This document shows positions 4,533-16,313 of a DNA stretch of 35,035 nucleotides, one piece after another (position 1 is the stretch's first letter; each line of letters opens with the position of its first letter). A program made the translations under genes and the position numbers. Origin of the DNA: Bartonella sp. DB5-6 (GTDB lineage Bacteria; Pseudomonadota; Alphaproteobacteria; Rhizobiales; Rhizobiaceae); assembly GCF_000278115.1 (NCBI RefSeq), contig NZ_JH725125.1, positions 1 through 35,035 on the forward strand. The letters are read 5' to 3'. The notes beneath the pieces were generated by a model. That model was given only the letters and a program-made list of their open reading frames with translations. It was not told where the DNA came from and ran no database searches.

Positions 4533-6317
4533 TTAAAGATCCATTGTTAATGTCATAAAAAATGTTCCTGGCTTCTTGTGTTTAACTGTGCTCCACAAAA
4601 CACTGGAATAGCTTGCATCAAGGGAGACTATACCCCCCGCAAGCTTGAACCCTGCTGTCCAACCGGCAAGCTGTTCATGCGTAATTCCATACAAGGGTTG
4701 AGAAAAAACACGCCCATAGTCCAAACCCAAAAAGGGACGTAGTTCACCAAAAACTTTTTTCAGAGAAGCGTTGTTGCTCCACGGTATTGCACGCAAAGAC
4801 AAATCATTACGAATAAAAAAACCGTTATTGCCAAAAAGCAAACTCTCGCGCGTTCCACGCACATTAGAAGCGCCGCCCAACGAAATCTGCTCAGCACCCA
4901 ATAAATTATGTGGAGAATATTGCCCACTCAAAAGATTGCTCAGTATAAAGTCCAAGCCCCCTAATTTAAAAGGCGTCATGGCACTGATCGTACCGGTAAA
5001 TTTAGCAAATTGCGGCTCCGCATCCCCTGCCCCTGGATCATACTTCTTGACAGAATTAAACAAGGGAAGCCCTTGCAAATAGCCGACATCAAATGTCCAT
5101 GTTCCATCTAGCATCTGGCGGGAATGCGAAATCCCAAAATTGGCAACGCTATATCGACGACTGCCAACCTCTATCTTATTACCAAGAAGGTAATTGTTGG
5201 TCTTTTTATAGGAAAGACCAAAATTCAGCGTGGTGAGTGAAACACTATCACGGTGCACAACTCTGCTGGTGCTAGCATGCAATTCACTGGAACTGCCTGT
5301 CGTTTCTATATCTGTAAAGTTACCCTTAATAACGCTCTGATAATCATAAACAGTGCCATTTAACGCAAATGTCCAATAACCGTAAGGAATACTCACACTC
5401 GCAGAAATATTATTGCTATGTCCCTCTTGTTTGCTTCCACCCCAATAATCTTGCTCACTGCGTTGATAGCCAAAATCCCATAAATCATTCAGCCCTAAAA
5501 TATTCTCTAGTTTTAAACCCCCACTATAACGCGCATAACCCGTGGAGGCTTGCCCCATATTGTCATGTGTAAGCGTAACCCTAAAAGCCTTATCAGGATG
5601 ATTGCTAATATTAACAATGGTACTGCCATCTTCACCCCCTGGGAGGAGTTCACTTTGGGCATGCGCCGAAGCCAACCTGTTTATCTGGTCAAGTCCCTGT
5701 TCAATATCGCGCATATTAAGAACATGACCTTTAAGCCCTGGAAAAGCATTCCACACAATCTGATTATAACGAGACGCCGGTGAACCATTATAGTAAATAT
5801 CTGAAAGCTTTCCCTCAACAACAACTAACCTCAGCTCTTTACCACTTTTGATATCTTGGTCTGGAATATAAAAACGCGCCGTCACATAGCCTTGATCCAG
5901 ATAAACTTTGGTTAACTGTTTGATCAATGTCTGTATATCAGAAAGACCTACACATCTTCCAACATAAGAATCCGTAACTTTTGCTATAGTGTACTTCTTT
6001 ATATGATGGACCCCATCAACAATAATATGATCAATGTTGAAGCAACGTCCACCACCAAGATGCGCCCCTCTATCTCTTTCAAGAGAAGTATCCATTCCTT
6101 TGGGTGTTAAAGCTCGTAAATGCTCAATCCTTTTTAATCTTTGCTGCTCAGTGTGCTCACGTGCAAAATTATCTGTTGGAGAATGAAAAATAGCTGAGGA
6201 CCGCGCATAAACAGTTATGCTAGTAAACATACCAAATATAGCTAGAAATATTCTCAAAAGAGAACTTCGGCGTGAAAATACAGAAAACAATACAGATTGC
6301 CCCCCACTTTGCAGCAT
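4533..6317 (-). CDS. fhaC: Two-partner secretion outer-membrane transporter FhaC/ShlB/HecB family
   Basis: This 594-aa protein is the TpsB pore expected for the adjacent fhaB, which starts 23 nt after its stop, so the two form an operon. A signal peptide ends near residue 38 (ITVYA). The POTRA1 domain begins at RCFNIDHI (91-98); Cys92 and Cys122 are spaced like the cysteine pair of ShlB-type POTRA domains. The chain ELRLVVVEGKL (161-171) leads into POTRA2, followed by a beta-barrel from about 255 to the end. The L6-loop motif appears as VRGTRES, where most relatives have an aromatic residue after VRG. Family knowledge: POTRA domains bind the TPS domain of the partner and the barrel conducts it. 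The ATG at 6317 has no clear Shine-Dalgarno; a TTG at codon 10, preceded by GTGGGGGG, is an alternative that keeps the signal peptide. Confidence 0.92.
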   Translation of the reverse strand: MLQSGGQSVLFSVFSRRSSLLRIFLAIFGMFTSITVYARSSAIFHSPTDNFAREHTEQQRLKRIEHLRALTPKGMDTSLERDRGAHLGGGRCFNIDHIIVDGVHHIKKYTIAKVTDSYVGRCVGLSDIQTLIKQLTKVYLDQGYVTARFYIPDQDIKSGKELRLVVVEGKLSDIYYNGSPASRYNQIVWNAFPGLKGHVLNMRDIEQGLDQINRLASAHAQSELLPGGEDGSTIVNISNHPDKAFRVTLTHDNMGQASTGYARYSGGLKLENILGLNDLWDFGYQRSEQDYWGGSKQEGHSNNISASVSIPYGYWTFALNGTVYDYQSVIKGNFTDIETTGSSSELHASTSRVVHRDSVSLTTLNFGLSYKKTNNYLLGNKIEVGSRRYSVANFGISHSRQMLDGTWTFDVGYLQGLPLFNSVKKYDPGAGDAEPQFAKFTGTISAMTPFKLGGLDFILSNLLSGQYSPHNLLGAEQISLGGASNVRGTRESLLFGNNGFFIRNDLSLRAIPWSNNASLKKVFGELRPFLGLDYGRVFSQPLYGITHEQLAGWTAGFKLAGGIVSLDASYSSVLWSTVKHKKPGTFFMTLTMDL

Positions 6318-7867: not shown

Positions 7868-8068
7868 CTAGGTGCCTAGAAAACACCTCAAATCGGTAGC
7901 GGATAGATTACGACACAATCTTTTCTCTGCAAATTTAAAAATTTTGACTCATTATATGCGCGTGGCATATAGTAGTTCTGTCGGGTGTAGCTATGCCATA
8001 AATACCCTTTTGGGAAAAACATAGCGACAGACTATCGACCGTGTTTTCTAGCGCTAGGCACTCTCTTT
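7868..8068 (+). ncRNA. Structured leader RNA, Brt-like, copy 1
   Basis: About 200 nt, homologous to 12855-13053. Helices seen: outer closing stem GTGCCTAGAAAACAC (7872-7886) with GTGTTTTC (8041-8048) and TAGGCAC (8055-8061); CGGTAG (7894-7899) with CTATCG (8032-8037); hairpin ATATGC/GCATAT (7954-7970); TCTGTCG (7977-7983) with CGACAGA (8025-8031), enclosing CTATG/CATAG (7991-7995, 8020-8024). Several pairs differ from copy 2 by compensatory changes, so the fold is under selection. From memory, Bartonella henselae carries a genus-specific family of Brt RNAs of about 194-203 nt, each directly upstream of a gene for a DNA-binding protein and proposed to act both as cis switch and trans sRNA; size, position and genus fit. 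The downstream gene here is a broken antirepressor, so only the RNA may still function. Confidence 0.72.
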
Positions 8069-8083
8069 GGATGTCAACAAAAA

Positions 8084-8101
8084 ACCTCTAATCGATAGGA
8101 G
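8084..8101 (+). promoter_or_regulatory. Shine-Dalgarno segment repeating the leader 5' arm
   Basis: ACCTCTAATCGATAG (8084-8098) runs into the ribosome site AGGAG (8097-8101), 6 nt before ATG 8108. It repeats ACCTCAAATCGGTAG (7885-7899) with two changes. Both copies can pair with CTATCG at 8032-8037, so pairing of the second copy would cover the ribosome site. The same arrangement exists in copy 2. Confidence 0.5.
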
Positions 8102-8107
8102 CTCACA

Positions 8108-8655
8108 ATGAACACTCTTATTAAAATATCAGAAAAAATTATTGAACAAGAAATTGTGCAAACGGTCAATGCGCGTAAGCTACACGCATTCATGAAAATA
8201 GGAAAACGTTTCGCTACTTGGATTACAGATCGTATTAATCAATATACATTTGAAGAAGGTAAAGACTTCATAAAAACACAGGATTTGCGGTTCTCAAAAT
8301 TGAGAAGCGCAAAATCTAGAGCTGCTACAGCAATAGAATACCATCTCACTTTAGACATGGCGAAAGAGCTTTCCATGGTTGAACGCAATGAAAAAGGACG
8401 GTAGACACGTCGTTACTTTATTGAATGTGAAAAAAACTAAAAAGCCAATCTGTTGATTATGACCGTGATACACGTTTTGATTTCCCAGAAGATTGGGATA
8501 AAATGTCTCCAACTAAAAAGGCTGTTTACATTTATGGACCTCTCCACATGCATCTTGTTAAAGCCTTTACGTTGGTAGAAGAAAGCAAGCAGTATAAAAC
8601 ACTCATTGAAGAAGCCAAATAAGTTTTAGCAAAATCTGTTGTAAAAGCTGCTTAG
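8108..8655 (+). pseudogene. Phage AntA/AntB-type antirepressor, broken
   Basis: The first 98 codons match the N-terminal antirepressor domain of the intact gene at 13094 (MNTLI-ISE, QTVNAR-LH-F, HLTL-AKELSM). Three lesions follow. A TAG at 8402-8404 replaces the Glu of the conserved GREARRYF segment. A frame change falls in the A-run 8430-8436. A TAA at 8620-8622 interrupts the last part, which otherwise continues to TAG 8653-8655. The C-terminal part (DYDRDTRFDFPEDWDKM...) has no match in the intact copy, so the two antirepressors had different tails. Antirepressors of this type bind phage repressors and trigger induction; this one should be inactive unless the short N-terminal product has a role. 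Confidence 0.85.
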
Positions 8656-8671
8656 CTTTAGAAACATAACC

Positions 8672-8696
8672 CCTCCCCGTTTTAAAAATGGGGAGG
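8672..8696. terminator. Hairpin between convergent genes (CCTCCCC / GGGGAGG)
   Basis: CCTCCCC (8672-8678) pairs with GGGGAGG (8690-8696), extended by TTTT/AAAA. It lies between the ends of the plus-strand antirepressor pseudogene and minus-strand hicB. No long T-run follows on either side. A close relative lies at 16230-16248, so this may be a dispersed palindromic element that also stops transcription. Confidence 0.5.
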
Positions 8697-8699
8697 TAG

Positions 8700-9128
8700 T
8701 TAAGCCGCGTCTTTAATTGTGATGACCACCTGCTTGCCAAGAACACTCAGTGCTTGCTCCAGTGTCTGAAGTTTGGTTGGATAGTTTGGATCAAGAATGC
8801 GTCTTGCTTCTGTTTCTTTCTTACCCAAACGATGAGCCAATTCTGTTTTTGTAATATTCGCTTCATTAAAGGCTTCTACCACTGCAAGTTTAAGAGCATT
8901 CCACGCATCTACCGTAACCTCTACAAGGTCTTTATACTGTTGTGGCATTGGTAAAGGCAAACCACGCATAGGATAGCTCCGTAATGCTAACCCTAAAGCT
9001 TCAACAGCATTCTCTAATGCCTCAGCTCTATTTTCTCCAGCTGTGATTGCTTCTGGTACATCTGGAAAGGTTACAATAAAACCACCATCTGGATCAGATT
9101 CTAGTTTTGCTTGATAAGTGTATTCCAT
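8700..9128 (-). CDS. hicB: HicB family antitoxin
   Basis: This 142-aa protein has a HicB fold at residues 1-60 (DPDGGFIVTFPDVPEAITAG, then an EALENAVEALGLAL helix) and a helix-turn-helix-like C-terminus (NITKTELAHRLGKKETEARRIL). Family knowledge: HicB masks the HicA mRNA interferase and represses its own operon through the DNA-binding domain. The ATG at 9128 has GAGGAGA 8 nt upstream. It lies 80 nt downstream of hicA in the same orientation, giving the usual hicA-hicB order. The pair looks complete. Confidence 0.88.
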   Translation of the reverse strand: MEYTYQAKLESDPDGGFIVTFPDVPEAITAGENRAEALENAVEALGLALRSYPMRGLPLPMPQQYKDLVEVTVDAWNALKLAVVEAFNEANITKTELAHRLGKKETEARRILDPNYPTKLQTLEQALSVLGKQVVITIKDAA

Positions 9129-9208
9129 GTTTAGGTCTCCTCGCTATGATCGAAATGCTTTTGAAACAAAAAATTAAAAGTCTTTGAGAGAGTAACTCAT
9201 GCCCCCAA

Positions 9209-9388
9209 CTACTTTTTTATTATTTTCACGTAAAGTGGGGTCAATTCACCAGATTTTATAACGGTTGTCTTGTCTCCAAAAGTTACCAAATAATGTGACC
9301 CTTTGCCTGCATCAGGAGCTTCACTGTAATGAATGCTTCTTTTTTTGGCTTCTTTACGTAATTCTCTAAGCAGTGCTTTTCGTTTCAT
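9209..9388 (-). CDS. hicA: HicA-type mRNA interferase toxin (59 aa)
   Basis: A short gene of 59 codons starts at ATG 9388 with a strong GGGGGAGG site upstream and ends at TAG 9209-9211. The protein has the HicA double-stranded-RNA-binding-like fold: basic helix MKRKALLRELRKEAKKR, then AGKGSHYLVTFG with the conserved GSH histidine (His32) that is catalytic in the family, and a C-terminal PLYVKIIKK. Known HicA proteins of 50-60 aa cleave mRNA. With hicB downstream it forms a complete toxin-antitoxin module that would help keep the island in the chromosome. Confidence 0.8.
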   Translation of the reverse strand: MKRKALLRELRKEAKKRSIHYSEAPDAGKGSHYLVTFGDKTTVIKSGELTPLYVKIIKK

Positions 9389-9431
9389 TTAGCCTCCCCC
9401 TTTCTTCATAAAATGAATATCGCACAAAAAG

Positions 9432-9470
9432 GTTCGATAACCAACAATAAATCGAACAAAAAAGTTTGAT
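9432..9470. promoter_or_regulatory. Operator-like repeats upstream of hicA
   Basis: GTTCGAT (9432-9438) and its complement ATCGAAC (9451-9457) are spaced by 12 nt, and a third related half-site GTTTGAT follows at 9464-9470. They lie 44-82 bp before the hicA start. The spacing is what a dimeric or tetrameric HicB with a helix-turn-helix domain could bind for autorepression. The role is inferred from position only. Confidence 0.4.
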
Positions 9471-9689
9471 ACAGACTCTTAATGAAAGGATATTTATTGA
9501 AAAGTTAAAAGCAGAAATAAGAAAGCCGTGCCATTTGTGTGACATGGTTTTTTGATGAATAATTTGTCAAATAATATTATAATGTAATACATTAAAAAAC
9601 TGTTATTAATTTACTGAAATAATTAAAAAATATGCAAATTATGCTAAGATTTTGCATGTATAAATCGCTAATCTAATGGGGCTACAAAT

Positions 9690-10144
9690 ATGCTAAATAA
9701 AGTGACGTTAATCGGGCGCCTTGGTGCTAATCCCGAAAGCAAAACAATGACTTCTGGTGCCGAGATAGTCAATTTTAGTATAGCAACGTCTGAAAGCTAT
9801 ACAGATAAAAAAACAATCAAAAAGTAGAGAAAACAGAATGGCATTCCGTTGTGATTTTTAATCCACATTTGGCAAAAATTGCACTTCAATATCTAAACAA
9901 AGGTTCAAAAGTTTACATAGAAGGAAAATTACAGACACGTAAATGGCAAGATAAAAATGGGCATGACCGTTACTCAACAGAGATTGTCTTACCACAATTT
10001 AAAGGCGAGTTGTATTTGCTTGATGCCAAAAAAGAGCAATCGGCATCCCCTACCCCTTCACCTATTACTTCTCAAAATTATGCTATCGCTTCAGGGGCTG
10101 CTGATCATAGTGCACCCATTAATAATGATAGCATACCATTCTGA
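9690..10144 (+). pseudogene. ssb: Single-stranded DNA-binding protein, frameshifted phage-type copy
   Basis: ATG 9690 opens an SSB OB-fold ([31 protein letters not shown]) that hits TAG at 9825-9827. The correct frame resumes as [21 protein letters not shown] and runs through [24 protein letters not shown] to the acidic tip DSIPF, the peptide by which SSB recruits partner proteins. The shift falls in the A7 run 9807-9813; one more A would restore the frame. The total length of about 150 codons is normal for SSB. Phage SSB copies coat single strands during replication. A shortened product could start at the GTG at 9851 but would lack half of the OB fold. Confidence 0.85.
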
Positions 10145-10155
10145 TTGAAAAAAAT

Positions 10156-10697
10156 ATGACAAAAAGAAAAAAACGTGCAAAACGTGGTCGTCCTCGGATT
10201 AAAGGATGTATCAGAGAACCAAATGGACGCATCTCAAGAGCAAAAACACCGCATGAACCCATGGTAAATTGGCAATTGAAATGCGTGCCAAACGCTTTGG
10301 TTTGACCATAGAAGAGGCTAAAAATCCGCTTTCCGGTACCTATATCGGGTGGCTTTATTTGCAAGGCGAACTTAATCAAGACCAATATGATGCGGCACAA
10401 AAATACCTTGAAGTGAAAAATAATTACCTATGTGCAAAAGCCTTGCCTAGCGCTATTTATGATGAAATGCCTACAACTTCTGATAACAGAGCAAGAGAGA
10501 AATGGGTACAGATAGCAACAGAACATCTTGTAGCTGTAAAAGGTGTTGTTTAAGAAGCGCAGTGTTTACACCGTCAATATAACCTTCATGCCGCATTACA
10601 GTATCTTGTTATAGAAGATCAATCACTACCACATCTTGTGCTTTCATTGCGTATTGTTCTTAATGCGCTTCATAAGCATTTTACGCAAAACCGGTAG
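10156..10697 (+). pseudogene. Phage-associated basic protein of unknown function, broken
   Basis: A frame from ATG 10156 gives a very basic N-terminus (TKRKKRAKRGRPRIKG) ending in PHEPM. After a frame change near 10262-10270 it continues as AIEMRAKRFGLTIEEAKNPLSGTYIGWLYLQG and then LNQDQYDAAQKYLEV to TAA 10551-10553. The same frame stays open beyond that stop (EAQCLHRQYNLHAALQYLV) to TAG 10695-10697, so the TAA is probably a CAA-to-TAA change. The family is not recognised; the segment with DQYDAAQ-YLEV recurs in alphaproteobacterial prophages near ssb. Position after ssb suggests a replication-region gene. Confidence 0.6.
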
Positions 10698-10700
10698 TTT

Positions 10701-11123
10701 TCAAGCGGCATCTTGGATATTAATGGCAACCTCTTTTCCAAGAGCAATGAGAGTAGACTCTAAGGCATCTAATTTGCTTGAGTGGTTTAAATCCAACAAT
10801 CGGTCAATTTGTATTGGATGAAGTTTTAAAAGACGTACGAGATCAGCTTTGCGTAAGTTTTTTTCAATCATAGCGTTATGTATTGCAATTTTTAAAGTCA
10901 CCAATGAAGATACTTCAACAAAAGGATAGGAAATATCACGATGTCCAAAGGGAATAGGTTCACGATCTTGAAAACGCCCTATAATAACTGTTAAAAGTGC
11001 GTTTTTAGCGTGTTCCAAAGCTTCTTTTTCGTCGTTACCGTAGGTAATAAATTCCTGAAAGTCTTTGGAGACAACAAGAAGAGTATCATTGTCATCTTTG
11101 ATAAATTTGATTGCATATTTCAT
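10701..11123 (-). CDS. hicB: HicB-like antitoxin, second module
   Basis: This 140-aa protein resembles the HicB at 8700 in overall plan: YAIKFIKDDNDTLLVVSKDFQEFITYG, a KEALEHAKNAL helix, then a helix-turn-helix-like tail (LRKADLVRLLKLHPIQIDRLL) and the same ending INIQDAA against ITIKDAA. ATG 11123 has GGAGGTG 4 nt upstream. It starts about 20 nt after the end of a hicA gene. The two HicB proteins share plan and ending but differ widely, so the modules are probably distinct specificities and not a recent duplication. Confidence 0.82.
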   Translation of the reverse strand: MKYAIKFIKDDNDTLLVVSKDFQEFITYGNDEKEALEHAKNALLTVIIGRFQDREPIPFGHRDISYPFVEVSSLVTLKIAIHNAMIEKNLRKADLVRLLKLHPIQIDRLLDLNHSSKLDALESTLIALGKEVAINIQDAA

Positions 11124-11143
11124 TTACACCTCCATATTCAGGC

Positions 11144-11326
11144 TTATTTTAGGTCAAGATCTTTAAGAATCTTCTGGACTAATCCTGTTCCTAATTCTTT
11201 TCGCGTACCATGCATAGGTAAAACAGATTTTTTAGAACCACGCTTTACAAGCAAATGACCATCTTTCCCTGAGGTGAAAGTACAACCATGCTTTATAAGA
11301 TATCTTTTCAATTCTTGGCTATTCAT
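11144..11326 (-). CDS. hicA: HicA-type mRNA interferase toxin, second module
   Basis: The protein starts MNSQELKRYLIKHGC as family members do, has the active-site segment GKDGHLLVKRG (His24), then VLPMHGTRKELGTGLVQKILKDL, the typical HicA C-terminal half in which HG-KEL-G is conserved. I chose ATG 11326 because it gives the family N-terminus; an in-frame ATG at 11341 adds MFIII, and neither has a clear ribosome site. All family residues are present, so an active toxin is likely. It pairs with hicB directly downstream. Confidence 0.82.
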   Translation of the reverse strand: MNSQELKRYLIKHGCTFTSGKDGHLLVKRGSKKSVLPMHGTRKELGTGLVQKILKDLDLK

Positions 11327-11445
11327 TATAATAATAAACATCTAAAATGTTTCAATACAACATAAGTGTTGTGCTAAAGGACATCTTTTAAAATGCCATA
11401 TTTAGGTAAAAAAATAAAAAAAACACAAGATCATGATTTTTTCTG

Positions 11446-11474
11446 TTGACAGTATGTGAAAAGTCGTATTTAAT
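11446..11474 (+). promoter_or_regulatory. Candidate promoter of the tail-type genes, with operator-like motif
   Basis: TTGACA (11446-11451) and TTTAAT (11469-11474) are spaced by 17 nt, pointing to the gene at 11673. The spacer contains ACAGTATGTGAAA (11449-11461), found again exactly at 12777-12789 upstream of the second leader. Sharing of a 13-mer by two promoter regions of one island suggests a common repressor. Confidence 0.45.
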
Positions 11475-11672
11475 GACAATACGGCGCTAGTCTTATTGTG
11501 TCTAAATTTCAAAACATCCCCTAAAAATTCAGTAAAATGTGAACTTGAAACGTGGCTAGAAAGCCCTGTTTTCTTGCTAATTCTGGCTAATCTATTTTTC
11601 AAATAGCAAAAATCATTAATTGACAGGTGATGTCATTAATTATGCCTCAATTATGCCTCAAAAGGAGTGACT

Positions 11673-11993
11673 ATGAAAGCTGTCATCACTAAGCCAATGT
11701 GTGTGGTTGGCGACAATAAAAGAACTATTCGTTTTGAACCATCGACAGCAAATATTCCATTTGTTGAAGTTTCCAATCAAGTCTACGCACGTCTCAAACG
11801 CGCCAATGCGGCAAAACTTTTTGTTGACGTTAAAACAACAACAAAACCTGAAAAGGCAGTTGAACAGATTAAGCAGATAGAAAAAGAAGCCGTACAAACA
11901 TCATCTGAACCAGCAGCCGAGGAAATTCCACTCGAAAAACCAAAAGAATCTAAAGTTTCTAAGTCATCAACACCTACCCCAAAAAAGGCTTAG
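11673..11993 (+). CDS. Phage structural-region protein of unknown function (106 aa)
   Basis: ATG 11673 is preceded by AAAGGAG at a 6-nt spacing; an in-frame GTG 6 nt earlier is less likely. The N-terminal 55 residues (VVGDNKRTIRFEPSTANIPFVEVSNQVYARLKRANAAKLFVDV) look like a small folded domain of the kind found in phage head-tail joining regions. The rest is a Lys/Glu/Pro/Ser-rich tail that is probably unstructured. It stops 3 nt before the next gene, so they are co-translated. Two tandem copies of an 11-mer, AATTATGCCTC (11638-11659), precede the ribosome site. No function can be assigned from the sequence. Confidence 0.7.
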   Translation: MKAVITKPMCVVGDNKRTIRFEPSTANIPFVEVSNQVYARLKRANAAKLFVDVKTTTKPEKAVEQIKQIEKEAVQTSSEPAAEEIPLEKPKESKVSKSSTPTPKKA

Positions 11994-11996
11994 AAG

Positions 11997-12578
11997 TTGA
12001 AGTTAATCATCCACCAAAAATGGTATCTTCAACAGGTGAAGGATACCTTCACCAGTCTTCAAGCACCACGCCTTAATTGGGCTTTGCGTAATGCTGTAAA
12101 CACCGCAGCAAAACAAGTAGAACGCTTTGCAGAAAAACAAATTGCCGATGTTACATCTGCCAAACCAAAGCGTGTCAAAAAAGGCGTTTATATTAAAGGA
12201 AAAGCTACAGCAAAGTTTCTTGAGACAGATATCATTGGTTCTGGAACACCGATACCTCTTAAATTTTTTCAAGCACAAGAAACAAAACAGGGTGTAACCT
12301 ACAAAATGTTGGGGAAAAAAGAAATCTTACCCCATGCTTTTATTTGCGGGGGAAAATTTCCTAAGCGTGTTACATTAAAGATGGGAAACAATGTGTTTCA
12401 AAGAGCGGATGGAGATCAATTCCCTATTGCAAAACAAGAGGGACCATCAATTGCTGGAGTGATGTCCAAACCAGAAATTGCAAGTGCTATTGTAAAAGAA
12501 GCCAATGAAAGATTAATTGCCAACATACAGTACCAACTTGCTCGTCATGAATACGCTGCTAACAAGAAAGCTAAATAA
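11997..12578 (+). CDS. Phage minor tail protein Z-like
   Basis: This 193-aa protein has an N-terminal helical half (LNWALRNAVNTAAKQVERFAEKQI) and the segment FKRVTLKMGNNVFQRADGDQFPIAKQEGPSIAGVM in its C-terminal half. A modified-residue-poor FRR-G-LPI-K-GPSIP pattern like this marks the lambda gpZ family of tail completion proteins. The start is TTG 11997, three bases after the stop of the upstream gene, because no ATG occurs in frame for about 95 codons; AAAAGG lies 13 nt upstream. No other tail genes are nearby, so the cassette is a leftover of a deleted morphogenesis region. Confidence 0.65.
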   Translation: MKLIIHQKWYLQQVKDTFTSLQAPRLNWALRNAVNTAAKQVERFAEKQIADVTSAKPKRVKKGVYIKGKATAKFLETDIIGSGTPIPLKFFQAQETKQGVTYKMLGKKEILPHAFICGGKFPKRVTLKMGNNVFQRADGDQFPIAKQEGPSIAGVMSKPEIASAIVKEANERLIANIQYQLARHEYAANKKAK

Positions 12579-12724
12579 TGTTTTTAAACTATGCCTACGT
12601 GCTATACACCGCGGTTTTAATTTTAAAAGCAGATTATCACTTGTGCTTTGGTGTTTTTCAGAAAAAATTCAATAAAATCAATGCAAAAGGTACTTCCCAG
12701 CAGGTTGGGTCTGTTGCGGGGCAG

Positions 12725-12746
12725 GCTAGCGCAAACTATCGCTAGC
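12725..12746 (+). terminator. Hairpin after the tail-type genes
   Basis: GCTAGCG (12725-12731) pairs with CGCTAGC (12740-12746) over an 8-nt loop, followed by GACAGAATTTTC. It sits about 150 nt after the tail gene stop and before the next promoter region. The T-tract is weak, so termination is probable but not certain. Confidence 0.45.
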
Positions 12747-12764
12747 GACAGAATTTTCAAATTG

Positions 12765-12781
12765 ACTGTACACTGTACAGT
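12765..12781. promoter_or_regulatory. Operator-like inverted repeat ACTGTACACTGTACAGT
   Basis: Two perfect 7-bp arms, ACTGTAC and GTACAGT, flank a 3-bp centre. The repeat merges at its right end into the 13-mer ACAGTATGTGAAA shared with the promoter at 11446. It lies about 40-55 bp before the promoter of leader copy 2. A phage repressor or its antirepressor-controlled partner is the natural candidate ligand. Confidence 0.5.
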
Positions 12782-12820
12782 ATGTGAAACGTTTTCTTAG
12801 CAAAAAGTAATTTTTGTTAC

Positions 12821-12848
12821 TTGACAATTCTATAGTAATGGGTATTTT
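12821..12848 (+). promoter_or_regulatory. Promoter of leader RNA copy 2
   Basis: TTGACA (12821-12826) and TATTTT (12843-12848) with 16-nt spacing place the start near 12855, just before the first helix of the leader. The position relative to the RNA is the same as in copy 1. Confidence 0.55.
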
Positions 12849-12854
12849 CGAATC

Positions 12855-13053
12855 AGGTGCCTAAGAAACACCTTAAATCGATAGCGGATAGATTGCCGAC
12901 ACCATCTCTTCTCCGCACATTAAAGACTTTGACTCATTATATGCTACATGCATATAATAGGTTTGTCGGGTGTAGTTACGCTATACAATACTCTTTATGG
13001 GGAAAGCGTAACGACGGACTATCGACCGTGTTTCTTAGCACCCGGCATTCTTC
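12855..13053 (+). ncRNA. Structured leader RNA, Brt-like, copy 2
   Basis: About 199 nt. Helices: CTAAGAAACAC (12861-12871) with GTGTTTCTTAG (13028-13038), continued by GTGCC with GGCAT through a G-U pair; CGATAG (12879-12884) with CTATCG (13019-13024); ATTATATGC/GCATATAAT hairpin (12936-12958); TTGTCG (12963-12968) with CGACGG (13012-13017), enclosing TTACGC/GCGTAA (12976-12981, 13006-13011). The outer and inner stems differ from copy 1 at both partners so that pairing is kept. CTATCG can alternatively pair with CGATAG at 13080-13085, which overlaps the ribosome site AGGAG (13084-13088) of the antirepressor. This is the geometry of a cis-acting translational or attenuation switch. Identity with the Brt family is from memory and should be tested. 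Confidence 0.75.
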
Positions 13054-13093
13054 TGGAATGTCAATAAGAAACCTCTAATCGATAGGAGTTCAC

Positions 13094-13702
13094 ATGAACA
13101 CTCTTATTCCGATATCGGAACAAACTGTTGGACAGGAAACTGTTCAAACAGTAAATGCACGTGAATTGCATAGTTTTTTAGAAGTAGGTAAAAAATTTGC
13201 GGACTGGATTACCGAACGTATCAACAAATATAATTTGGTAGAAAATCAAGACTTTGTTTGCTTCCCTATTTTGGGAAGCAAAGGCAGGGGTGGTCACAAT
13301 CGTAAAGATTATCACCTCACCTTAAGTGTAGCAAAAGAGCTTTCTATGCTTGAGAACAATAAGAAAGGTAGAGAAGCACGTCAATACTTTATCAAATGTG
13401 AACAGCTTTTGAAACAAGTAGCAACCCCACAAGTTGACTACTCCAAACCCGAGGAATTGCTTGGTGTTTTGAATCATCTACAAAATCAAATCGAGCAGAA
13501 GGATCATGTAATTGCCGAGTTAACACCCAAAGCACAAGCACTTGAAGGCTTAAAGCGCTCTGATGGGTTGTTTGGTCTTATGGATTGTCCTGCTATCACC
13601 ATTCAAAGACCGGATGGAACAGATGAGGTGCTGCCTTCAACAAAAATTACACCAAAAGGATTGGCATGTTTGAGAGAACAAATCTTTGGAGGTGTGCAAT
13701 GA
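13094..13702 (+). CDS. Phage antirepressor, AntA/AntB family
   Basis: This 202-aa protein has an AntA/AntB domain at about 15-115 (QTVNARELHSFLEVGKKFADWI, then HLTLSVAKELSMLENN-KGREARQYF). A short coiled-coil-like stretch follows (LGVLNHLQNQIEQKDHVIAEL) and a C-terminal part with QALEGLKRSDGLFGL and LPSTKITPKGLACLREQIF, which resembles a small KilA-C-type DNA-binding tail. Family knowledge: such proteins inactivate the phage repressor. AGGAG lies 5 nt before ATG 13094. Translation is probably governed by the leader 12855-13053, whose 3' arm can pair next to the ribosome site. The stop overlaps the next start as ATGA. Confidence 0.85.
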   Translation: MNTLIPISEQTVGQETVQTVNARELHSFLEVGKKFADWITERINKYNLVENQDFVCFPILGSKGRGGHNRKDYHLTLSVAKELSMLENNKKGREARQYFIKCEQLLKQVATPQVDYSKPEELLGVLNHLQNQIEQKDHVIAELTPKAQALEGLKRSDGLFGLMDCPAITIQRPDGTDEVLPSTKITPKGLACLREQIFGGVQ

Positions 13703-16224: not shown

Positions 16225-16248
16225 CCCCTCCCCGCTTTAAAAGCGGGG
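16225..16248. repeat. Hairpin repeat CCCCTCCCCGC / GCGGGG
   Basis: CCCCGCTT pairs with AAGCGGGG (16230-16248) directly after a CCCCT. Its core matches the hairpin at 8672-8696 (CCCCTCCCCG-TTTAAAA). Both lie downstream of phage genes. It may stop transcription of the GHKL gene, but no T-run follows. Confidence 0.5.
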
Positions 16249-16264
16249 AAAGAGAGATTATATC

Positions 16265-16313
16265 GTCATCTATCCGCTAATCGCTTAAGTATTTCTTAGA
16301 TACCTGACTCGAC
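16265..16313 (-). ncRNA. Truncated third copy of the leader RNA 5' end
   Basis: The reverse strand reads TCGAGTCAGGTATCTAAG, AAATACTTAAGCG, ATTAGCGGATAGATGA. This follows the 5' end of leader copy 2 (TCGAATCAGGTGCCTAAGAAACACC...GCGGATAGATT) for about 48 nt. The rest of the RNA, the 3' arms and the antirepressor are absent. The break comes just before the hairpin at 16225. It is probably a remnant of an inverted or recombined unit and cannot fold like the full leaders. Confidence 0.6.

Follow-up and report, generated by a model that had tools for sequence, protein, structure and literature searches.

Introduction

Phages P1 and P7 carry a small antisense RNA, C4 (RF01695), that stops antirepressor synthesis by covering the ribosome-binding site and thereby sets P1/P7 heteroimmunity (PMC12197685; PMC5320573; these and the other papers cited here are drawn on as excerpts). 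The C4 precursor is processed by RNase P (PMC5320573), and 'c4-a1b1' appears as a table entry in Weinberg 2010. Another small RNA, sRNA-Xcc1 (RF02221), was cloned as a product of 88 nucleotides (nt) by end mapping (PMC2996969), which is the size of the core alone of the element described below. PMC12189769, in the part available, names sRNA-Xcc1 and C4 antisense as separate families, and in the excerpts of the open-licence literature that were searched no link of sRNA-Xcc1 to C4-type control was found. In Bartonella itself the Brt RNAs have been described, of which Brt1 is interpreted as an attenuator with a possible response to heme (PMC8070961). Here we describe an RNA leader of about 240 nt that occurs twice, upstream of AntA-type antirepressor genes, in the first 35,035 nt of contig NZ_JH725125.1 of Bartonella sp. 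DB5-6 (this whole stretch is called the window). In this leader one internal segment is complementary both to an upstream site and to the start site of the gene behind it, the three change together, and the segment lies in a core related to sRNA-Xcc1. We read the leader, with a probability of roughly 0.68, as an antisense module of the C4 type, with an sRNA-Xcc1-like core, that switches antirepressor translation. Handles beginning with L, G and C denote loci, genomes and contigs of our own collection.

Results

Two leaders with three word copies

Both window leaders and their genes lie on the plus strand. The copy 1 leader (approximately 7869–8107) is followed by the ATG at 8108 of an AntA gene that stops after 98 codons (8108–8404), and the copy 2 leader (approximately 12854–13093) by the ATG at 13094 of a gene for an antirepressor of 202 aa (13094–13702, PF08346); the products of both genes match Pfam AntA. 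In copy 2 a predicted upstream promoter, P1 (TTGACA-16-TATTTT, 12821–12848, 10/12 consensus positions), would give the full leader mRNA. Just inside the leader are two words, A1 (12861–12871) and B1 (12878–12884), that can pair with a segment M (13019–13038) carrying the complementary words in inverse order, B' (13019–13025) and A' (13031–13038). M is also complementary to a third copy of the words, A2 (13065–13072) and B2 (13079–13085), which runs into the Shine–Dalgarno (SD) sequence AGGAG at 13084–13088. A1-B1 and A2-B2 are thus direct repeats and M is inverted. Copy 1 has A1 at 7876–7886, B1 at 7893–7899 and M at 8032–8051 (B' 8032–8038, A' up to 8051); of its third words (8077–8098), A2 is diverged (8077–8085) and B2 intact (8092–8098).

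Complementarity of the three strands is maintained by co-variation

From Bartonella genomes 142 nearly full leader copies were extracted, of which 120 were distinct, 118 usable and 98 more than 5% apart from each other; 97 diverged copies were aligned. Among the 98, the duplex of M with its own upstream words (5':M) had an energy of −26.5 kcal/mol against −17.0 kcal/mol with permuted partners (z −30), and the duplex of M with its own start-site words (M:SD) −16.5 against −7.7 kcal/mol (z −34). A direct count over the five variable positions of word B in 96 parsed copies (480 cells) gave M:SD pairing in 465 cells, the best of 2000 shuffles reaching 271, and complete pairing over all five positions in 91 copies. 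The corresponding figures for 5':M, 438 cells and 82 complete copies, are a lower bound because of parsing slips. M occurred as 29 different 5-mers over these positions.

Tested as structures in the 97 aligned copies, the 39-pair 'closed' 5':M structure was paired in 97.7% of 3759 cells (87.2% in column shuffles); its double-change cells numbered 448, where shuffles gave 139.6 (sd 13.1), and 19 pairs had double changes against 15.1. M:SD was paired in 95.7% of 3089 cells with 405 double-change cells against 138.8. Slid controls were paired in only 30–43% of cells for 5':M and 30–51% over both structures. The number of further pair types was not clearly above shuffles for 5':M (60 against 57.3, reached by 35 of 500 shuffles) nor above them for M:SD (52 against 52.8). 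Double-change cells and the covariation score exceeded all 500 shuffles for both structures; E-values and shuffles ignore shared ancestry and relatedness inflates the shuffles, yet the slid controls fail and the words have changed many times. In some loci (L019:1500, L031:323, L073 and others) the 5' words disagree with M while the SD words still match it.

The sequence-only reading had placed two diverged leaders before antirepressor genes at these positions and quoted three stem pairings in each copy, all of which read in the sequence as it gave them. Its claim of selected RNA structure is borne out by the 5':M figures, and the link that it drew to phage antirepressors extends to 108 of the 120 distinct copies, which stand before AntA- or Rha-type genes as classed by motif. 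What it noticed is real and larger than it described. It overlooked the third word copy at the SD sequence, the RF02221-related core and the promoter-like nature of the A+T stretch that separates the core from the 5' words.

An alternative to be weighed here is that the words act as DNA, as operators or recombination repeats, and not as RNA pairing partners; A1-B1 and A2-B2 are direct repeats around an inverted M, and some leaders are mosaic or truncated. Complementarity has, however, been kept through at least 29 word versions, the words make up the loop and linker in a family of which an RNA has been cloned, and B2-like words occur at start sites in other genera above expectation (see below). 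We consider this explanation barely credible.

The core is related to sRNA-Xcc1

The window gave no Rfam match at the gathering threshold, but below it the core of copy 2 (12964–13055) matches RF02221 with 43.7 bits (E 1.1e-6, gathering score 53). Of the 11 RF02221 matches listed for the source genome, three pass the gathering score (C3:134039 with 53.9, C15:9071 with 53.5 and C11:41348 with 53.1 bits) and the other eight fall below it; sibling copies in other loci reach 57.6 and 56.3 (L067) and 55.1 bits (L028). A sibling aligned to RF02221 by cmscan has the outer helix, hairpin 1 and hairpin 2 with its linker all present, and the leader core is related to this family. In copy 2 the 5' strand of the outer helix, CGGGTG, lies at 12967–12972 with its partner at 13039–13044; hairpin 1 follows at 12975–13012 (double changes in 4/7 pairs), and a small hairpin at 13044–13062 (double changes in 5/7 pairs) leads from M to the third word copy. 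Within Bartonella the outer helix CGGGTG/CACCCG is intact in 99.0% of 582 cells, with zero double changes, and across genera (34 RNAs) double changes are found in 7/9 predicted pairs. In the RF02221 fold both words are exposed, B' as the hairpin-2 loop and A' as the linker that follows.

A promoter-like element precedes the core

The A+T stretch from the 5' words to the core reads in copy 2 as TTGACT-18-TATAAT (12929–12958, 11/12 consensus positions, predicted start about 12965) and in copy 1 as TTGACT-18-TATAGT (7944–7973, 10/12). Hexamers of this element, P2, with at least 10/12 matches were present in 82/97 copies against 1/97 when mononucleotides were shuffled as a control, and in 80/97 copies 7 nt separate the end of the −10 box from the core. 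It should be noted that both P1 and P2 are consensus matches with predicted starts. Neither leader region yielded an intrinsic terminator. The RNA predicted from P2 would be short, lacking A1-B1 and having about the size of the cloned sRNA-Xcc1. Two other readings were rejected: that of the stretch as a central A+T hairpin, as only 5 double-change cells fall on its 6 pairs and a promoter explains it better, and that of a leader peptide, as the frame from a GTG near the start is open for at least 60 codons in only 32/98 copies.

These hexamers bear on the strongest competing explanation, a riboswitch or attenuator acting purely in cis, in which binding of a ligand or protein would toggle the leader between 5':M, which leaves the start site free, and M:SD, which closes it, and no separate small RNA would exist. 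Both mutually exclusive pairings do co-vary at the same nucleotides, predicted nascent folds form 5':M first in 95/98 copies, and the published model of Brt1 is of just such a cis-acting riboswitch or attenuator, maybe heme-responsive (PMC8070961). The promoter-like hexamers before the core, the cloned 88-nt sRNA-Xcc1 and the C4 precedent point instead to a separate RNA, and a purely internal switch would not readily account for wholesale word changes. We regard the cis switch as unlikely, though as an alternative to be taken seriously, and prefer the antisense module.

Spread of the leader in Bartonella

The source genome has 13 blastn matches of the leader, including three partial ones, and the leader was matched in 50/71 Bartonella genomes (E≤1e-6). 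Seven plasmid records matched, all from Bartonella; a degenerate pattern scan of a species-representative collection returned 74 stretches, every one with a Bartonella title; and a search of a phage collection with the leader gave zero matches. By motif class the genes behind the 120 distinct copies were AntA-type in 80 cases, Rha-type in 28, solenoid-type in nine and other in three, the Pfam check of downstream genes covering seven representatives. The solenoid class was met in L043–L046, L238 and other loci, on plasmids and other contigs, where the proteins encoded behind the leader weakly match beta-solenoid (YdcK/bactofilin-like) families in Pfam.

Several copies are arranged in ways worth recording. 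Genome G023 has 11 leader matches at 372–412 kb, and at C1:377374–379011 and 409436–411662 (L151, L153) leader and AntA gene form tandem arrays in which the word pair differs per unit. In L014, L022, L069, L096, L105 and L110 a gene-less leader copy ends near GGCAT(T/C)C and a full copy follows directly; in L014 and L022 the 5' words of the gene-less copy mismatch its own M. Near-identical leader copies at large offsets in G022, G027 and G066 point to recent large segmental duplications.

RF02221 RNAs outside Bartonella

RF02221 matches were found in 47/385 sampled genomes of the class, eight above the cut-off, and in 58/398 sampled genomes of the phylum, 40 above the cut-off (the source genome included in both). 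From this sampled and incomplete set 94 distinct non-Bartonella RNAs of 61 genomes were taken. Complementarity of their M segment to their own 140 nt upstream was strong (z −26; 63/94 in the best 5%), and to their own 150 nt downstream weaker overall (z −6.4). Over the 34 nt leading up to the predicted start codon, complementary runs of at least 7 occurred in 40/91 cases against 10.9 expected and runs of at least 8 in 17 against 3.2 expected, so a start-site word copy outside Bartonella is frequent and not universal. Among 20 downstream proteins chosen by eye, 12 were Bro-N, P22_AR_N, Phage_pRha or KilA-N (three under the curated cut-off). A two-word RNA encoded in a leader also stands upstream of SymE in L261 and L280. 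Two small alphaproteobacterial genomes, G361 (L243, L302 and others) and G164 (L235, L292 and others), have 10 and 11 RF02221 matches listed, some of which are followed by XRE genes or by a recurring small gene of unknown family.

The layout of C4 was examined in the same way. RF01695 matches were found in 41/299 genomes, and 30 C4 loci gave z −10.0 for upstream complementarity (12/30 in the best 5%) and z −5.7 for downstream (6/30). In C4 loci such as L330 the order is a1, b1, GGCG, the core with the b' loop and a' linker, a2, b2, GGAG and ATG. The leader likewise has two words complementary both to an upstream site and to the ribosome-binding site.

Brt RNAs and a second Ant leader

The best match offered by the sequence-only reading was the Brt family, abundant RNAs of about 200 nt (194–203 nt) that control a downstream regulator. 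Similar length speaks for it, as does the fact that the 5' words of Brt RNAs are also complementary to hairpin 2 and its linker. Genome G023 fits the published Brt set, with nine XRE-type helix–turn–helix (HTH) genes behind a common leader within 1439339–1716259 (277 kb), one gene having an internal stop and two having 99.7% identical upstream DNA. A profile search (nhmmer) with the leader against 30 XRE upstream windows of G023 and G064, nine of them taken as Brt1–9, gave zero matches at E≤10; one Brt scanned closely gave no RF02221 match at E≤10; an XRE-type trp gene lay directly downstream of 0/120 classed leader copies; and the Brt loci of G023 are separate from its 11 leader matches. Membership in this family is thus largely refuted for want of sequence homology, and we hold it very improbable. 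A likeness in architecture is left: in 15 distinct Brt-type RNAs, found by motif pattern at XRE loci of G023 and G064, the 5' segment of the RNA is complementary to its own hairpin-2 loop and linker (z −5.2, with single cases ranging from −9.4 to −29.8 kcal/mol), and complementarity specific to the RNA's own sequence was absent in the 150 nt downstream (P 0.45). At most, Brt is a distant cousin of the leader.

A second Bartonella leader, which shares the three-word design of the first but not its sequence (its hairpin 1 contains TATGTCCAAG), was seen before MNTLIKI-type Ant genes at L028:159–241, L067:2710–2792, L075:2411–2493, L155:17532–17614, L159:7228–7310 and L228:17813–17895. Truncated copies of the first leader stand immediately before it in L028, L067 and L075; one variant of the second leader has its words changed in all three places, and the one case scanned closely was unmatched in Rfam.

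Other features of the window

A leader fragment comprising the first 74 model positions lies at 16234–16306 on the minus strand. A gene for a ShlB/FhaC-type two-partner secretion transporter (Pfam) occupies 4533–6317, and a frame at about 9690–10144 reads as similar to single-stranded-DNA-binding protein and is apparently interrupted near 9830.

Discussion

A model for antirepressor control

We propose that a long transcript from promoter P1 would carry A1-B1, then the M-containing core and finally A2-B2, which merges into the antirepressor SD sequence, and that P2, or processing as in phages P1 and P7, would yield a short RNA starting at the core, whose words would be exposed because it lacks A1-B1. 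By analogy with C4, this short RNA may pair with A2-B2, block antirepressor translation and so keep the prophage module silent. On the long mRNA A1-B1 would tie up the mRNA's own M, preventing self-silencing, and the start site would stay open until a short RNA with matching words is present. Silencing by the short RNA together with self-protection by A1-B1 is the simplest scheme that uses both pairings.

Several results weigh against this reading. In predicted folds of the full leader M is held in 5':M in 89/98 copies, which would leave the start-site words free of M, so that M:SD in cis is not the default. The core of window copy 2 scores below the RF02221 gathering score, and RF01695 had zero matches to the leader at E≤5 and none in the source genome. 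Twelve of the 120 copies stand before genes of non-antirepressor motif classes. Outside Bartonella the RNA's own downstream stretch was in the best 5% for only 12/94, and the 20 downstream proteins chosen by eye included two SymE, two XRE-type HTH proteins and four without a Pfam match. sRNA-Xcc1 is described as trans-acting and under HrpG/HrpX in a title cited in PMC12444791, and the available part of the B. henselae RNA-seq study names only Brt1–9 as novel abundant RNAs (PMC5387305). Finally, word pairs would be expected to be unique within a genome, because copies would have to ignore each other in trans, and a test for such uniqueness did not reach significance (8 identical pairs where 7.4 would be expected, P 0.69; with near-identical copies collapsed, 3 against 6.6, P 0.10). 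Trans specificity between copies is an attractive idea to which this test lent no support.

Among the sampled copies five A words are common, and the B words number about 26. Gene-less truncated copies were considered as trans regulators of a sibling and rejected, since within our incomplete sampling their M words equal those of no other copy.

A wider synthesis can be offered tentatively, at somewhat less than even odds: sRNA-Xcc1, the Bartonella antirepressor leaders, the second Ant leader and Brt may form one superfamily of C4-like, re-programmable two-word antisense RNAs, in which supposed virulence small RNAs and riboswitches would be phage-derived immunity switches and the Bartonella words would have been combinatorially diversified as address codes among coexisting prophage modules. 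Even short of that, the antisense reading supplies a testable target rule for an Rfam family (RF02221) that the literature discusses as a virulence-coregulated small RNA, namely to read the loop and linker and check the start site behind, and a possible reason for the presence of sRNA-Xcc1 upstream of symE in integron cassettes. It suggests that Brt1 be re-read as part of the same design. Single Bartonella genomes hold about a dozen copies of the C4-like layout, a natural supply of word sets with which the mutual discrimination of antisense RNAs could be studied.

Comparison with known systems

C4 of phages P1 and P7 shares with the leader the order of its parts (the a1-b1 words, a core whose hairpin loop holds b' and whose linker holds a', and the start-site words a2-b2), antirepressor synthesis as the target and loops that differ among members (PMC5320573; PMC12197685). 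The leader differs from C4 in its core sequence, which has no RF01695 match, in its conserved internal promoter-like element and in its copy number (13 blastn matches in the source genome and 11 in G023). The module is thus C4-like in layout and not a member of RF01695. With sRNA-Xcc1 it shares the core fold and the hairpin-1 sequence AUACAAUACCC...GGGGAA, whereas the Rfam model (87 positions) lacks the flanking A1-B1 and A2-B2 words and sRNA-Xcc1 is treated as free-standing in that model and in the literature excerpts. The Brt RNAs of B. henselae are similar in length (about 200 nt) and in the complementarity of the hairpin-2 loop and linker to the 5' segment, but have XRE genes downstream, no sequence match to the leader and no own-specific downstream site; the single Brt scanned in detail had no RF02221 match. 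In the sar RNA of P22 antisense control of an antirepressor recurs (PMC12197685), and SymE is under antisense control by SymR (PMC12444791). Both sar and SymR are described in these excerpts as other antisense RNAs, whereas the RNA found before SymE in L261 and L280 is a leader-encoded one with two words.

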